From positions 1 through 25,908 of the IMG/VR virus record IMGVR_UViG_3300017987_000328: a stretch of DNA of 25,908 nt, one strand, 5' to 3'. Below the pieces are notes generated by a model, which made no database searches, was not told where the DNA came from, and worked only from the letters and a program-made list of their open reading frames with translations. Positions within the stretch are counted from its first letter, which is position 1. The number at the start of each line of letters is the position of its first letter. Of the stretch, positions 2,972 through 25,904 are shown one piece after another. The position numbers and the translations under genes were made by a program. Origin of the DNA: a virus.

Positions 2972-3786
2972 ACAACACGATTATTGACGCTCAGGACCAA
3001 CGTATCGCTATCCATGTGCTGCAGCAGACCGGCGAGATGCCGGCATTCTACTCGGTACCGAAGAAACAGCTCAAGCTCGAAAAAGCGTTCATTGCGGAAA
3101 TGCGGAAGGGGCTGGAAGGTCTCGGGACTGTTCTCTTGCAGCATGTCCACCGGAAGGATCGAATCCTCTCTCCAGAGAATCTGTTCGGGTATTTCGAAGC
3201 GGATCTGATGAAGAGGGCTACCAGCTTGGAAGAGGCATACAGCACGCACATGGGCATCGGCATGGAAATGGGATTCATGCGCGGAGCGACCGAGGTGAAA
3301 GAATTGATCGGAGTCACGATGAATTGGGATTTGAAGAATCCGGCTGTCCAGAGGATCCTCCAGGAACAGTCGTTTGTGGCATCAGAAGCAACAATGAACC
3401 GTATGATTAGCGATATTGATACCATCCTCAGACGCGGGTATGATCGAGGGCTCAGTGGCGACCAGGTGGCCAGATTACTCGATCAGAAGTTCTACGAGCT
3501 GAAGCATCAACGACTCGAATTCATCAGCCGGACGGAAATCGGCAGTGCTCAGAACCAGGGTGCGATGATGACTTACGATGAGGCTGATATTCAGAATATT
3601 CAGTGGTTGGCCACGAAAGACGGTCGGACGCGGTATAGTCACCTGCTGGAACACGCAAAAGTAATCAAGCGCGGAGACCGATTCCCGACGACAGGGCTAT
3701 TACATCCTGGCGACAAGTCCGGAGATATCTCGGAGTGGGTAGCCTGCAGGTGCGCTGTCAGGGCTAAAGTGAAAGTTCCGAAATAG
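2968..3786 (+). CDS. Mu gpF / SPP1 gp7-type head morphogenesis protein
   Basis: This is a 272-residue minor head protein. The C-terminal third carries the family pattern: RTEIGSAQNQGAM (about 191-203), then WLATKDGRTRYSH (about 213-225), a PGD motif and CRC near the end. Proteins of this family bind the portal and enter the procapsid in small numbers, and SPP1 gp7 influences DNA ejection. The N-terminal half is helical and variable, as usual. The start overlaps the upstream stop by four bases. A non-coding gap with a promoter candidate and an operator follows, so this is the last gene of the first head block. Confidence 0.85.
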   Translation: MNNTIIDAQDQRIAIHVLQQTGEMPAFYSVPKKQLKLEKAFIAEMRKGLEGLGTVLLQHVHRKDRILSPENLFGYFEADLMKRATSLEEAYSTHMGIGMEMGFMRGATEVKELIGVTMNWDLKNPAVQRILQEQSFVASEATMNRMISDIDTILRRGYDRGLSGDQVARLLDQKFYELKHQRLEFISRTEIGSAQNQGAMMTYDEADIQNIQWLATKDGRTRYSHLLEHAKVIKRGDRFPTTGLLHPGDKSGDISEWVACRCAVRAKVKVPK

Positions 3787-3837
3787 TAGAACCGTCCCCG
3801 TACCCTCTTCAGCCATTGGTTATTACGTAGTAAACTA

Positions 3838-3855
3838 TGACAACTATCGTGTTCA
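3838..3855 (+). promoter_or_regulatory. Operator-like palindrome, site 1
   Basis: TGACAACTATCGTGTTCA is an imperfect copy of the 18-bp palindrome TGACAACTATAGTTGTCA. The same element occurs at 7150-7167 and, on the other strand, at 25887-25904. All three lie in intergenic DNA near probable transcription starts. A phage repressor or activator site is the simplest reading; the cognate regulator is not in the window. Confidence 0.6.
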
Positions 3856-3871
3856 ATTTTGCTATAAAACC

Positions 3872-3900
3872 TTGACATAAGAACTAACATATATTAGACT
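3872..3900 (+). promoter_or_regulatory. Promoter candidate for the SNF2 cassette
   Basis: TTGACA (3872-3877) is followed after 17 bases by TAGACT (3895-3900), which matches four of six bases of TATAAT. The pair lies 40 bases before the SNF2 start and just downstream of operator site 1. An exact -35 with optimal spacing supports it; the -10 is moderate. Confidence 0.55.
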
Positions 3901-3939
3901 TAAAACATAGGAAATATACCAAACACGAAGGAGAAAACG

Positions 3940-5898
3940 ATGGTTCTTACTCACGTAGATGGTAAGTTCCTTTGGGAAGGCGGATTCGAGGAACGGTTTA
4001 TTCCGAAAGAAGCCCGATTCAGGTGGGACCCTCACGGTAATGATTGTGGGCAACCAAAGACCTGGTGGACAGATGACCCTCAGCAAGCAATCCGCTTGAT
4101 CGACTACGCAATCCCTGAAACCCGCGCCGTGCTGGAACAGAGGGAGACCGAGCTAAAAGCCACGATCGAAGCGAGTAAGGCGACGGTCGTTGATATTGAC
4201 ATCCCTGCACCTGAAGGGCTGGAGTACATGCCCTTCCAGAAGGCGGGGATAGCTTTTGGAATACCGCTTACCAACGTCCTTATCGGTGACGAGATGGGAC
4301 TCGGAAAAACGATTCAGGCGCTGGGGCTTATCAATGTTGACGAGACAGTAAAAAGAGTCTTGGTTATCTGCCCTGCCTCCCTTCGATTGAACTGGCAAAG
4401 AGAAGCGGAGAAGTGGCTGGTCAGGCCGATGACGATTGGTATTGCCGATAGTAAGAACGGATGGCCTCATTGGGCAGAGATGGTAATTATCAATTATGAC
4501 ATTCTCGAAAAATACCACGATGTTCTCAGAGCCCAACAGTGGGACATGATGATTTGCGATGAAGTACATCTGTTGAAGAACCCGAAGACCCTCCGGACAG
4601 TCAATGTCTTCGGTCGATGGGCTCGGAAAGTCGAGGATCAGGTCGAGCCGATACCGGCAAAAAGACGGGTTTTCCTTACCGGAACACCGATAGTCAATCG
4701 CCCGATCGAAATGTGGCCGATGTTGAAGTCGGCAGAGGTCTTCACCAACTGGAAATTCTACGTAGAAAGATATTGTGACGGCTGTCAGACCAGATATGGA
4801 TGGGACGTAAAAGGCGCAAGCAATCTTCCGGAGCTGCAGGAGAAGTTGAGGTCAACCTTTATGGTGCGCCGGTTAAAGAAAGACGTCATGGCGGATCTTC
4901 CACCGAAACGACGGCAGGTAATCGAATTGCCGGCCAACGGTTGCTCCCAGGTAATCACGGAAGAGCGCCAAGCATGGGAACGGCAGAAGGAGGTCGTTCA
5001 ACAGCTTCAAGTCGCCGTTGAACTTGCAAAAGCCAGTGATGACCCTCAAGACTACAAGGAAGCGGTTCAAGCCCTCAAATCCGGCATCACCGCTGCTTTC
5101 AATGATATGGCCAAAGCTCAGTACAATGTGGCAATAGCCAAAGTTCCGTATGTGATAGAGCATCTGAGGGAAGCCATTGACAGTTCCGGGAAGATTGTTG
5201 TCTTTGCCCATCACCATGACGTGACCGATGCAATCATGGAAGCCTTCGAAGGACAAGCTGTAAGGCTTGATGGCCGAGATAAGATGGCTGACCGGCAGGA
5301 GTCGGTAGATCGGTTCCAAGGTGATCCGAGTTGCAAGCTGTTCGTTGGTTCGATTGGTGCTGCAGGAGTGGGTATCACTCTGACGGCTTCAAGCCATGTT
5401 GTTTTCGCCGAACTTGATTGGGTGCCAGGTAATCTCAGTCAAGCCGAAGACCGGTGCCACCGAATCGGGCAGGAGGAATCGGTGCTGGTTCAGCATATCG
5501 TACTCGAAGAATCGCTCGACGCAACGATCTCTCACAGGGTTGTCGAGAAGCAGGCTGTGATCGATAAAGCGCTTGACGATGAGATCGAAATCAAACGGAC
5601 ACCGATAGCTCCGACAGTAATCACGAAGACAGCTACCAGCAGCACCAGTCGGAAGGATATCGCGGAAGAAGCCGAGAAGATGACCGGAATCGAAATCGCC
5701 GAAATTCACGCAAATCTCCGTTTTCTGGCGATGCGGTGCGACGGCGCTCATGCAATGGACGGAATAGGATTTAACAAGTACGATGCTCCGATAGGACGCG
5801 ATTTGGCCTCAAGGCCGACGTTGACTCCGAAACAGGCTGCTTTAGGCAAACGGATATGTAAGAAGTATCAAGGGCAGTTGAGTTCGGTATTTGCATAG
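3940..5898 (+). CDS. SNF2-family DNA helicase/translocase
   Basis: This 652-residue superfamily 2 ATPase probably moves on or remodels DNA during phage replication or recombination. Visible motifs are Walker A GDEMGLGKT (116-124), motif Ia around VICPASLRLNW, DEVH box (207-210), motif III LTGTP (246-250) and motif VI QAEDRCHRIGQ (501-511). Overall order and length resemble SMARCAL1/annealing-helicase-like phage proteins. An N-terminal stretch (about 1-60) with the FRWDPHG and WWTDDPQQA elements may be a substrate-recognition part. The C-terminal ~100 residues (LTPKQAALGKRICKKY) lie outside the helicase core. AAGGAG sits just before ATG 3940. It leads a four-gene cassette placed between two head gene blocks. 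Confidence 0.9.
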   Translation: MVLTHVDGKFLWEGGFEERFIPKEARFRWDPHGNDCGQPKTWWTDDPQQAIRLIDYAIPETRAVLEQRETELKATIEASKATVVDIDIPAPEGLEYMPFQKAGIAFGIPLTNVLIGDEMGLGKTIQALGLINVDETVKRVLVICPASLRLNWQREAEKWLVRPMTIGIADSKNGWPHWAEMVIINYDILEKYHDVLRAQQWDMMICDEVHLLKNPKTLRTVNVFGRWARKVEDQVEPIPAKRRVFLTGTPIVNRPIEMWPMLKSAEVFTNWKFYVERYCDGCQTRYGWDVKGASNLPELQEKLRSTFMVRRLKKDVMADLPPKRRQVIELPANGCSQVITEERQAWERQKEVVQQLQVAVELAKASDDPQDYKEAVQALKSGITAAFNDMAKAQYNVAIAKVPYVIEHLREAIDSSGKIVVFAHHHDVTDAIMEAFEGQAVRLDGRDKMADRQESVDRFQGDPSCKLFVGSIGAAGVGITLTASSHVVFAELDWVPGNLSQAEDRCHRIGQEESVLVQHIVLEESLDATISHRVVEKQAVIDKALDDEIEIKRTPIAPTVITKTATSSTSRKDIAEEAEKMTGIEIAEIHANLRFLAMRCDGAHAMDGIGFNKYDAPIGRDLASRPTLTPKQAALGKRICKKYQGQLSSVFA

Positions 5899-5911
5899 GA
5901 GGAAAAGGAAG

Positions 5912-6358
5912 ATGGCACAAGATGTTCGAAAAACGATGTCGGACAATGACACTAAGATAATGAGGACCCAGGGTAAGCGAACGCTCGTTTATAGATGGGA
6001 CGATGCTAACTGTAAATTGAATGCGAGATATTACCGGATAGGCGGGTTCGCTATTGCGATGAAGGAGTTCGAATCCGCACCCATGATACCTGGCCCTCAA
6101 GCTAGTTTTGGCGCTATGCACCAAGTCGGGGAAACGATGTTTTACGGGAAAGGCTTTATCGGAGAGGTCGGTGAGGTCTTGGCTATTCATCAGGAAGAAT
6201 CTGACGAAGACCGGCAATGGGATGAGGTTATGAAGTTAGCTGAAAAGTATGGCCTGATCCGGCAAGCCTATGGCGGTGTTGCGGTTTTGGCACATCAGAC
6301 CGTAGAGTTCCCTGGTGCTGTGAAAAACGCAGCCAAAAAGGTTGGAGCAACTCGATGA
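5912..6358 (+). CDS. Unknown protein in the SNF2 cassette
   Basis: This is a 148-residue protein I do not recognise. It has no membrane segment or clear motif. A central part (LVYRWDDANCKLNARYY, then YRIGGFAIAMKEFES) looks like alternating strands, followed by a helical C-terminal half. ATG 5912 is preferred to the in-frame ATG 5891 because AGGAGG lies shortly before it and 5891 overlaps the SNF2 end. Its stop overlaps the start of the DUF2786-like gene (ATGA), so the three genes are likely co-translated and may work together. Confidence 0.75.
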   Translation: MAQDVRKTMSDNDTKIMRTQGKRTLVYRWDDANCKLNARYYRIGGFAIAMKEFESAPMIPGPQASFGAMHQVGETMFYGKGFIGEVGEVLAIHQEESDEDRQWDEVMKLAEKYGLIRQAYGGVAVLAHQTVEFPGAVKNAAKKVGATR

Positions 6359-6774
6359 TTGATGCAGATTTGAAGCAGAAGCTCCTGCAAATTCAAGCCC
6401 TGGCCGAACGCGGAGTCGGTGGCGAGAAAGTTAACGCAGCACGGATGTTGAAGGATCTACTCGATAAGAAAGGGCTCACTATCGAGGACTTGAACGACGA
6501 ACCGGAACGGCAGATCTACTGGTTTAAGTACAACACGGTGTACGAGAAAAATCTTGTTCATCAGATTGTTACCTCGGTTTGGCAGGCAAAATCGATCAGA
6601 TTCTACCTGAGGAAAGGGAAAGCAATGCACGGTTTCAAATTGACTGCCGAAGAGTACGAGTCTGTGAACCGCCAGCACGATATCTATCGGAAGGAACTGA
6701 AGGGAGAGATGGATATGCTGTTCTCTGCCTTCATCCAGAAGCATAAACTAGTGGCACCGGCAGAAGTTACCTAG
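6355..6774 (+). CDS. DUF2786-like protein
   Basis: This is a 139-residue protein. The N-terminal 45 residues (LALAERGVGGEK-type pattern: ALAERGVGGEKVNAARML, then LLDKKGLTIEDL) match the DUF2786 signature, a small helical domain found in many phage and bacterial proteins of unknown role. The rest contains a YWFKYNTVYEKNL strand region and a long C-terminal helix, as in longer DUF2786 proteins. It overlaps the previous gene by four bases and is probably in the same operon as the SNF2 helicase. No activity can be stated. Association with DNA-processing genes is a contextual inference. Confidence 0.75.
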   Translation: MIDADLKQKLLQIQALAERGVGGEKVNAARMLKDLLDKKGLTIEDLNDEPERQIYWFKYNTVYEKNLVHQIVTSVWQAKSIRFYLRKGKAMHGFKLTAEEYESVNRQHDIYRKELKGEMDMLFSAFIQKHKLVAPAEVT

Positions 6775-6786
6775 GAATGGGACGGA

Positions 6787-6930
6787 ATGCCGGAGCCACA
6801 GCCGAAAGTGAACCCCGAATATTTAAGAAGGCTATTCGCAATGATAGGCAACTTGGCGGATGTCCAGATCCCACAGCCGGAGAGTAGGCGCTTAGAAGCA
6901 GAAAACAACAGCGTTGAAAGTCTAGTCTAG
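6787..6930 (+). CDS. Small hypothetical protein (47 aa)
   Basis: This is a short ORF starting 12 bases after the DUF2786-like stop, with a weak purine-rich stretch before ATG 6787. The product starts MPEPQPKVNPEYLRRL, has one amphipathic helix-like segment and no Cys. It ends with TAG at 6928-6930 just before the repeat array. Close spacing in the same direction favours a real gene. Its shortness and weak ribosome site keep confidence modest. The function is unknown. Confidence 0.5.
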   Translation: MPEPQPKVNPEYLRRLFAMIGNLADVQIPQPESRRLEAENNSVESLV

Positions 6931-6943
6931 TAGACTTCTCAGA

Positions 6944-7054
6944 ATTACCAGGAATGGTAACTTTAGCCCCTTTTTGCTCTCAAGAATTACCGCCAGTGGT
7001 AACTCTGAAGAAGGATTACCAGTAGCGGTAACACTGATTACCAGTAGCGGTAAC
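6944..7054. repeat. Array of four 18-bp palindromic repeats
   Basis: Four copies of ATTACC-N6-GGTAAC start at 6944, 6986, 7015 and 7037. The last two are identical (ATTACCAGTAGCGGTAAC); the first two differ only in the central six bases. Start-to-start spacing shrinks from 42 to 29 to 22 bases. Each is an inverted repeat with TTACC/GGTAA arms, as expected for a dimeric DNA-binding protein. The array lies in non-coding DNA between the SNF2 cassette and the promoter of the head maturation operon. An operator cluster or an origin with iterons are both possible. Near 6918-6937 there is also a 7-bp hairpin (AAGTCTA/TAGACTT). Confidence 0.85.
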
Positions 7055-7149
7055 TCCACACGAACGCTCTTTATAGAAAGAAAATTGTAAGAAAGAATCT
7101 TGCCGGCTTTTGCCGGTCGCTTCCTCTAATCGTATAAACGATGCTTAAA

Positions 7150-7167
7150 TGACAACTATAGTTGACA
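7150..7167 (+). promoter_or_regulatory. Operator-like palindrome, site 2
   Basis: TGACAACTATAGTTGACA contains the perfect 12-bp palindrome CAACTATAGTTG. Its last six bases are the -35 hexamer of the promoter at 7162-7190, so a bound protein would compete with RNA polymerase. It is the same element as sites at 3838 and 25887. Confidence 0.7.
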
Positions 7168-7190
7168 GGTTTTAAGAATTATGGTATTGT
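7162..7190 (+). promoter_or_regulatory. Sigma70-type promoter for the tRNA and head operon
   Basis: TTGACA (7162-7167), 17 bases, TATTGT (7185-7190; four of six consensus bases). Transcription would start a few bases later, just ahead of the tRNA at 7209. The -35 overlaps operator site 2. Confidence 0.75.
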
Positions 7191-7208
7191 GTTGACCAAA
7201 GGACGCCG

Positions 7209-7283
7209 TGCAGGGAAGTTGTTGGCAACTCGCCGAGCTTCATAACCTCGGATTCGCGGGTTCGATTCCCGCCCCTGCTACCA
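7209..7283 (+). tRNA. tRNA with CAU anticodon (Met, initiator-like or Ile2), atypical D arm
   Basis: The 3' half is canonical: T arm GCGGG-TTCGATT-CCCGC (7256-7272), acceptor strand CCCTGCT, discriminator A7280 and encoded CCA (7281-7283). The 5' acceptor TGCAGGG (7209-7215) pairs except for a T-T at the first position. The anticodon loop TTCATAA (7239-7245) reads CAU. The D arm is short: GTTG/CAAC leaves a four-base loop, or AGTT/AACT leaves six bases. The pair closing the anticodon loop is C-C. An unpaired first position is an initiator trait, but the GC-rich initiator anticodon stem is missing, so Met, fMet and Ile2 cannot be separated by eye. Confidence 0.7.
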
Positions 7284-7315
7284 AAGGATTACGGGGTAAT
7301 AGTCCCCGAAGGAAA

Positions 7316-7349
7316 AGGATAAGGAAACGGAAGTCTTGTCCTATTTTTT
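7316..7349 (+). terminator. Rho-independent terminator/attenuator after the tRNA
   Basis: AGGATAAG (7316-7323) pairs with CTTGTCCT (7335-7342) with one G-U, loop of 11 bases, followed by six T (7344-7349). A small hairpin CGGGG/CCCCG (7292-7308) precedes it. It lies between the tRNA and the ribosome site of the protease gene, so it would end most tRNA transcripts and let only readthrough reach the head genes. Confidence 0.6.
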
Positions 7350-7360
7350 CGGGAGACAAA

Positions 7361-8842
7361 ATGATCGAAACAGTACAGAAAGACGAAAGCCTCGGACAGA
7401 AAGAAAACCGTATTCGGCAAGCCTTCTATAACCTGGTTAACCCTCCATCCAGCACTCAGTACGTTGATATTTGGGTGCGCGAAGTCTACAGCGATTACCT
7501 AATTACTGAAACTCCTCAAGGACTCCTGAAGTATTCCTACGTTGATGCTGATACCGGCATTACCTTCTCCGAACCGATCCCGGTCGAAATCACGTTTATA
7601 GCCAAGGGAAAGGAACGGATTACATCGATACTAAAAAGTTGTTTTGCGATGTTGAGCGGCACTTCATCGCAGCAAGACCCCCCAAATAAAGGGATTGAGG
7701 ATCAGAGACTCATGACCAAAGATGTTGAGATGAAGATCTGCTCTTCAGACGAACGCATGGTTGGAGGTCTGACCCTCGTCCCTGGAGAAGTAGACTCCCA
7801 GAATGATTTCTGGAGAGCTGAAGATATTCGCAAGGTTTCCTCCGGTTTCATGGAGAAATCACAGGTAATTGACTTCATGCACACGTCACTTCCGGTTGCG
7901 ACAGTGGTTGAAAGTATGTACCTGCCCACTCCAGAGGAAGGAGGGCAAGAAAATTACACCCTCTATGACCAAGAAGCTCCGGCCGGCGCGTGGTGGCTTA
8001 CCGTAAAAGTCTACGACGACGACGCCTGGGATTTGGTTAAGAATGGCGATCTTACCGGTTTTTCGATCTTCGGGATTAAGAAATCGAAGAAAGCCAGTTC
8101 CGTTTCTAAGTCTGCTAATGGAGATTCACAAGCCGGAGCACGACTGATGGACGGCGATGAATGGGACGTTACGATGGTTTCTTTGGTTGATAAACCAGCC
8201 GTGAGTAAAGCCACGTATTACGTTGTAAAGCGAGACCACTCCGGAAGTCCTCAGTTTGTCGAATACAAAGGACGGAAGATCAGCGATGACACCCTGCTAA
8301 AGTTGCAAGACGCTTATTTCAGCATCGGTTCTCTGATTTCCTTTGCTGAAGGCGAACGGACAAAAGAAGTGTTTTCGGTAACATCTGAAAAGGAGGCAAA
8401 GAAAATGAAAACTCCGGAACAAATTGCGGTAGAGGAAGCTCAGAAGGCGGTCATTGCGGTAGAGGAAGCTCAGAAGGCTTTCGATGAAGCATCCAAGACT
8501 CTTGGGGAGGCTCAGAAAGCTGCGGGAGTGGAACCTTCTGTGCTTATCGTGGAGGACAAAGACCTGCAGGCGGATCCGATTGCCGAGGGAGTCCAGAAGG
8601 CGCTCGACGCTCTGACAGCTACCGTGAAGGATCTCGAACAGAAAGTATCTGAGATCACTGCAAAGGCAGAGGAAAAGCCGGAACTCTCGGAAGAGGTATC
8701 GAAACGGCTTGAGGATATGGATACCGTCATCAAGGCTATCGCCAGACAGTCCAATTCCATCAGCGTTGAGGACGTCAGGAAAGGCGAGGAAGGACCAACC
8801 GGGAAGCCCTCATGGGTTTCGAATGGCGGGGATAAGGGCTAG
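7361..8842 (+). CDS. XkdF-like head maturation serine protease fused to a scaffold-like domain
   Basis: This is a 493-residue protein. Residues about 125-240 fit the XkdF-type phage protease (Peptidase_S78_2-like): a GLTLVPGEVDSQND block, His174 in DFMHT, a GAWWLTVKVYDDDAW block and Ser235 in GFSIFG, the likely catalytic His and Ser. Such proteases cleave scaffold and capsid proteins during head maturation. After about residue 345 the sequence becomes Glu/Ala/Lys-rich coiled coil, typical of scaffolds, with a 10-residue tandem repeat. ATG 7361 is chosen because GGGAG precedes it and a longer frame from GTG 7208 would run through the tRNA. An internal start at 8405 is listed separately. The major capsid gene follows. 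Confidence 0.82.
   Translation: MIETVQKDESLGQKENRIRQAFYNLVNPPSSTQYVDIWVREVYSDYLITETPQGLLKYSYVDADTGITFSEPIPVEITFIAKGKERITSILKSCFAMLSGTSSQQDPPNKGIEDQRLMTKDVEMKICSSDERMVGGLTLVPGEVDSQNDFWRAEDIRKVSSGFMEKSQVIDFMHTSLPVATVVESMYLPTPEEGGQENYTLYDQEAPAGAWWLTVKVYDDDAWDLVKNGDLTGFSIFGIKKSKKASSVSKSANGDSQAGARLMDGDEWDVTMVSLVDKPAVSKATYYVVKRDHSGSPQFVEYKGRKISDDTLLKLQDAYFSIGSLISFAEGERTKEVFSVTSEKEAKKMKTPEQIAVEEAQKAVIAVEEAQKAFDEASKTLGEAQKAAGVEPSVLIVEDKDLQADPIAEGVQKALDALTATVKDLEQKVSEITAKAEEKPELSEEVSKRLEDMDTVIKAIARQSNSISVEDVRKGEEGPTGKPSWVSNGGDKG
8405..8842 (+). CDS. Nested in-frame scaffold-like protein (internal start)
   Basis: Inside the protease gene, AGGAGG at 8391-8396 sits eight bases before ATG 8405, which is in frame (Met349 of the long protein). 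Translation from here gives 145 residues of helical, Ala/Glu/Lys-rich sequence with little hydrophobic core, the usual look of a capsid scaffold. Known precedents are lambda C/Nu3 and other protease-scaffold fusions where an internal start makes free scaffold in excess. The ribosome site is as strong as those of the major capsid and tube genes. That this start is used is an inference. Confidence 0.65.
   Translation: MKTPEQIAVEEAQKAVIAVEEAQKAFDEASKTLGEAQKAAGVEPSVLIVEDKDLQADPIAEGVQKALDALTATVKDLEQKVSEITAKAEEKPELSEEVSKRLEDMDTVIKAIARQSNSISVEDVRKGEEGPTGKPSWVSNGGDKG
8423..8478 (+). repeat. In-frame 30-bp tandem repeat in the scaffold region
   Basis: A 26-base stretch beginning ATTGCGGTAGAGGAAGCTCA occurs at 8423-8448 and again at 8453-8478, offset by exactly 30 bases (10 codons). 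It encodes two copies of IAVEEAQKA. It extends a coiled coil and may be a recent duplication. Confidence 0.85.
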
Positions 8843-25825: not shown

Positions 25826-25873
25826 TGGTGGGCGATCCTGGGCTCGAACCAGGGACCTCAGTCTTATCAGGAC
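25826..25873 (-). other. attP core: 3' half of a tRNA-Ile(GAT)
   Basis: On the minus strand the stretch reads from the anticodon loop CTGATAA (25864-25870) through GACTG, variable AGGTC, T arm CCTGG-TTCGAGC-CCAGG, acceptor ATCGCCC, A and CCA (25826-25828). The D arm and 5' acceptor are absent: the bases where they should be do not pair. This is the classical phage copy of a tRNA 3' end, with crossover in or near the anticodon stem-loop. Because the integrase side is present and the 5' tRNA half is missing, it is attP or a copy of it and not a host tRNA. Confidence 0.83.
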
Positions 25874-25886
25874 ACGATTCAGAAAA

Positions 25887-25904
25887 CCAACACTATAGTT
25901 GTCA
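25887..25904 (-). promoter_or_regulatory. Operator-like palindrome, site 3
   Basis: On the minus strand the sequence is TGACAACTATAGTGTTGG, sharing TGACAACTAT and the following GTGTT with site 1, and the first 13 bases with site 2. It lies 14 bases from the att core, at the window end. It could regulate a transcript running into the int region or be part of attP control. Confidence 0.6.

Follow-up and report, generated by a model that had tools for sequence, protein, structure and literature searches.

What do four palindromes with identical arms do in the middle of a phage head operon? The question is raised by IMG/VR record IMGVR_UViG_3300017987_000328, a linear stretch of 25,908 bp that was analyzed at its full length and is referred to below as the window. 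The original prediction had proposed either an origin with iterons or an operator cluster for a protein encoded by the adjacent gene cassette. The origin half of this proposal gained support, the motif being the O-type iteron in most array-bearing phages, and the half concerning an operator cluster for a cassette-encoded protein gained none.

Organization of the Palindrome Array

The four sites are as follows.

6944..6961, no strand: palindrome 1, iteron-like, ATTACC-AGGAAT-GGTAAC
6986..7003, no strand: palindrome 2, iteron-like, ATTACC-GCCAGT-GGTAAC
7015..7032, no strand: palindrome 3, iteron-like, ATTACC-AGTAGC-GGTAAC
7037..7054, no strand: palindrome 4, iteron-like, same sequence as palindrome 3

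As originally described, the array (6944–7054) consists of four exact copies of ATTACC-N6-GGTAAC within 111 bp, with start-to-start distances of 42, 29, and 22 bp. The inverted arms proper are 5 bp long (TTACC/GGTAA; TTACC-N6-GGTAA starts at 6945, 6987, 7016, and 7038). Flanking them are an invariant A and C that are not complementary to each other, and the central six bases always begin with a purine and end with a pyrimidine, giving the consensus A-TTACCR-N4-YGGTAA-C. No further ATTACC-N6-GGTAAC was found in the rest of the 25,908-bp window. Under a first-order model, 0.01 occurrences of TTACC-N6-GGTAA are expected in the window versus the 4 seen, and in 60 simulated windows any palindrome with 5-bp arms reached at most two copies per 130 bp, compared with four in the real window. 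Arrays of at least four palindromes of any kind were present at one locus only in 2.29 Mb of DNA from related phages. The array is real, lies far beyond chance, and has the form of an iteron cluster, with several inverted repeats of the same sequence in ∼100–150 bp. A likeness of site 2 to lambda OL1 was dropped because the dyad centers do not coincide.

The surroundings of the array contain the following features.

3940..6930, plus strand: inserted cassette upstream of the array, encoding an SNF2-type helicase and products of 155, 139, and 47 amino acids
3940–5898, plus strand: SNF2-type helicase gene, the first gene of the cassette
7068..7097, plus strand: AT-rich tract of 30 bp (80% AT, 70% purine), candidate DNA-unwinding element
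7103..7116, no strand: GC-rich short inverted repeat CCGGC-TTTT-GCCGG, without a T run
7150–7167: palindrome TGACAACTATAGTTGACA, overlapping the −35 element of the head promoter-like site
7162–7190, plus strand: promoter-like site TTGACA-17-TATTGT, reading into tRNA-Met and the head genes
7209..7283, plus strand: tRNA-Met(CAT) gene, between the array and the protease gene

The AT-rich tract, for which an unwinding role is predicted, begins 14 bp past the last site (counted from GGTAA). Stretches of 30 bases with at least 80% AT occur in just four places in the window, and ∼1% of positions lie within 25 bp of such a stretch. The tract beside the iterons is support for an origin and not proof, because intergenic DNA tends to be AT-rich. 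No terminator was called around the array or at 7103–7116. GC skew did not change sign at the array, contrary to what the original prediction had expected of an origin, although the test is weak when nearly all genes run in one direction and the window is a fragment. The 13-base half TGACAACTATAGT of palindrome TGACAACTATAGTTGACA recurs on the minus strand at 25892–25904, beside the attP-like sequence at the contig end described below; chance repeats of some 13-mers are expected at such a size.

Genomic Setting of the Array

Because the record is linear, the window is probably a fragment of a phage genome. Its genes run in the order portal, MuF-like protein, SNF2 helicase, unknowns, array, tRNA-Met, S78 protease, capsid (XkdG type), tail genes, and integrase, and the source phage is temperate. 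Near the right end, adjoining the integrase gene, positions 25826–25870 correspond to a tRNA gene in its 3′ half only, the 5′ half being absent. This sequence may be read as half of a tRNA-Ile(GAT) gene in the attP form, beyond which the early region is missing. When a single genome for each GTDB species was searched for a host, the 45-base attP core matched none of them exactly. Alignment of the portal revealed two more contigs of the same phage (L197 and L198), as well as distant relatives. L197 extends the phage leftward by 2,420 bp, adding terS and terL and bringing the total to 28.3 kb; other ends of this phage were not found among the viral contigs searched. In L197, terL is present in two overlapping frames (693–1406 and 1381–2109 of 693–2109), for which a frameshift, a split gene, or a sequencing error is possible. 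Searches with the 139-residue product, the capsid, and the SNF2 protein found no close relatives.

Comparison with relatives places the array in a phage-specific insertion at the MuF-protease junction. The MuF and protease genes adjoin each other in Methanobacterium virus Drs3 and in contigs L199–L202, and the SNF2 cassette is missing from the junction in relatives. Further relatives carry different insertions there, such as a TnpB-like gene in L206, and an array was found at the junction in none of the relatives examined. The junction (3786–7361 in the window) is an insertion hot spot in the related phages, with varied cassettes.

A cassette-encoded binder, either the 47-residue or a DUF2786-like product, had been proposed for the array. 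The 155-, 139-, and 47-residue products gave no match to any Pfam or NCBIfam family, DNA-binding families included, and the 139-residue protein has no significant DUF2786 match. The motif had also been expected beside SNF2 genes in relatives. It was absent from the regions checked of Thermus MN1 and Rhodothermus RM378, where a related SNF2 gene is present, and it has not been kept beside such cassette genes in relatives, an outcome that the original prediction had itself counted as adverse.

Distribution of the Motif in Viral Contigs

Two TTACC-N6-GGTAA sites lying 1–31 bp apart were sought in 2.9 million viral contigs, which yielded 101 stretches, compared with 10 for the reversed word used as a control. 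Clustering of the flanking genes, performed without reference to their labels, revealed one family with a member at 64 of the 101 stretches, and 18 of 19 sampled members of this family matched Pfam PF04492 (Phage_rep_O). The association was most pronounced for arrays of at least three sites, 38 of 42 of which lie inside genes of the Phage_rep_O-type (lambda-O-type initiator) family; the window iteron is in sequence of the kind known from O-family origins. Within such O genes, the replication origin is made up of iterons together with an AT-rich tract. Two-site stretches were mixed, with 24 of 59 in O genes and some beside Cro/CI-type regulators, and TTACC-N6-GGTAA alone is therefore not proof of an origin. 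In the O-phage records with listed positions the motif occurs only in the O gene, and in the window it is likewise confined to one place.

Four of the 42 arrays are outside the O family. In L070 the array is within an HTH_36 gene that has a helicase nearby, and in L034 it directly precedes a gene for a DnaC/IstB-like ATPase. L069 carries four tandem 21-bp TTACC sites at 1105–1200, intergenic and downstream of apparent tRNA genes, in a 55-kb phage that yielded no Phage_rep_O match. The fourth, L094 (IMGVR_UViG_3300031227_006314), has five sites and an A-rich tract at 4133–4330, intergenic between terS and terL, with O-like sequence downstream of the array although it is outside any O gene; no O gene was found on its 6.2-kb contig. 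Like the window, L094 combines a stand-alone array and an A-rich tract amid late (packaging) genes on a contig without an O gene. It differs in its position between terS and terL and in the shortness of the contig, and the likeness is one of the array only, with no kinship implied. L094 provides a precedent, and a stand-alone array among late genes is not unique to the window.

Comparison with Known Origins

The anatomy of O-gene arrays was derived from 50 non-redundant examples. Their commonest spacings are 22, 23, 24, 68, 21, and 18 bp, with 22 bp at the top, which is also one of the window spacings; the 29 and 42 bp of the window are absent among them, although 30, 31, and 43 bp are present. 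The 68-bp neighbor spacing recurs 14 times in the 50 arrays, in different phages. The base preceding an O-gene site is mostly G or A and the base following it mostly C, compared with A and C in the window. Downstream of O-gene arrays comes a tract rich in AT and in purines, the best 30-mer having a mean of 80% AT and a median offset of 25 bp; the window tract has the same 80% AT at an offset of 14 bp. IMG/VR O-family arrays (e.g. L007, L009, L031, L032, and L074) share with the window identical arms and spacer, 3–6 sites, and an AT-rich, purine-rich tract downstream. Unlike the window array, they lie inside the initiator gene, and their centers are mostly A-rich.

Similar features are found in characterized phages. 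ori-lambda, inside gene O, contains four inverted-repeat iterons and, beyond them, ∼30–40 bp of AT-rich sequence (PMC6022878, PMC7466680). The window resembles it in having four inverted-repeat iterons with an AT-rich tract after them and differs in arm sequence, in its wider and uneven spacing, and in its location outside any O gene, in the head operon. The annotated gp15 sites of phi80 are of the TTCCC-N6-GGGAA type. They too are four in number with 5-bp arms and a 6-bp center, and each arm differs by one base from that of the window (TTCCC versus TTACC); unlike the window sites, they lie ∼21 bp apart within gene 15. Among titles and abstracts in the literature, the anatomy of ori-lambda was found, and no report of a TTACC-N6-GGTAA iteron class.

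A Candidate Lambda-type Origin and Its Rivals

These comparisons suggest that the array is probably a lambda-type replication origin, or an origin module, standing apart from any O gene. The reading draws directly on the sites, the AT-rich tract, and the motif shared with O-gene origins, from which we infer binding of an O-like protein to the array and a start of replication there. A Phage_rep_O-type winged-helix initiator, like lambda O or phi80 gp15, would bind as a dimer at each of the four inverted-repeat iterons, and the initiator complex would open the adjacent AT-rich tract for helicase loading. The origin would thereby lie outside its initiator gene, alone in a cassette within the head operon, and the initiator would act in trans, supplied either by the missing early region of the phage or by another phage. 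No Phage_rep_O (PF04492) gene was matched in the window or the 2.4 kb to its left, a search in which positive controls matched and which covers the 28.3-kb fragment, the early region beyond attP being missing from it. The array is not classed as ori-lambda proper because it proved intergenic, a place within the initiator gene being a defining feature of that origin. Counting against an origin, besides the lack of an O gene in this fragment, are the centers, which are not A-rich as in most O arrays, the spacings of 29 and 42 bp, the position of the array in a late operon and not in the early region, the absence of a GC-skew turn, and the two-site pairs that stand beside Cro/CI-type regulators in other phages.

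The main rival is an operator cluster, in which a repressor or activator from the missing early region would bind the four sites cooperatively and regulate either transcription from the 7162 head promoter or read-through out of the SNF2 cassette. The array is indeed intergenic and near a promoter-like site, and two-site pairs of TTACC-N6-GGTAA stand beside Cro/CI-type HTH genes (e.g. in L080, L053, and L036), so that regulators with such specificity probably exist. However, the end of the last site (7054) is separated by 108 bp from the −35 element downstream at 7162, a distance too great for ordinary repression, and this element is already overlapped by the separate palindrome at 7150–7167. 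The sites neither overlap nor abut a promoter as those of CI/Cro operators do, a minus-strand promoter match at 6983–6954 being weak (9/12) and within chance expectation. Nor is there the adjacent regulator gene of such operators: none is recognizable beside the array, where the neighboring products lack an HTH family match, although a distant regulator is possible. Almost every array of at least three sites lies in an initiator gene, and an operator leaves the AT-rich tract without a role; we consider this explanation unlikely. A role in RNA is very improbable. Hairpins in the transcript, serving for example to process or terminate it ahead of tRNA-Met, would be in keeping with array RNA folding better than shuffled sequences (z = −2.5), but inverted repeats fold by construction, the predicted minimum-energy fold pairs arms across sites in place of four hairpins, and no terminator was called at the array. 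The arms are all identical, with no compensating changes, and the loops differ, which is the pattern of DNA recognition; RNA hairpins are accordingly disfavored.

An ectopic or relic origin is a further alternative, and we judge it quite improbable: a copy of an O-gene origin would have moved to the late operon and be inactive in replication, or would serve as a decoy titrating the initiator of a competing phage. It would suit the position of the array within the phage-specific MuF-protease insertion and the O-like sequence downstream of the L094 array, and plasmid-borne ectopic copies of ori-lambda have been reported to block lambda (PMC4488673). On the other hand, the arms are intact in four of four sites, contrary to decay, no O-gene remnant is detectable flanking the array, and decoy action here is speculation. 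The array as a relic inside an old O gene was rejected, searches for remnants around it having been negative, the second of them run without a positive control.

If the stand-alone lambda-type origin is functional, origin and initiator, which form one piece in lambda, would here be split, and it would become testable whether additional origins exist in phages or one phage exploits the initiator of another. The window and L094 provide two cases of an apparent O-type origin outside an initiator gene. A mobile origin is an improbable elaboration: the SNF2 cassette would bring along an O-type origin of its own but no initiator, giving the phage a second, late-operon origin or allowing the O initiator of another phage to be borrowed or titrated, and L094 would be an independent instance.

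The iteron word TTACC-N6-GGTAA is common to the O-type initiators of many phages and can be used for finding origins by sequence. It also occurs in dispersed form. L104 (IMGVR_UViG_3300027743_000535) has 14 copies over ∼6 kb of a 10.9-kb contig, with a stoperator-like look, and L026 (IMGVR_UViG_3300010151_000043) has eight copies of TTACCA-N4-TGGTAA dispersed across 5.5 kb.
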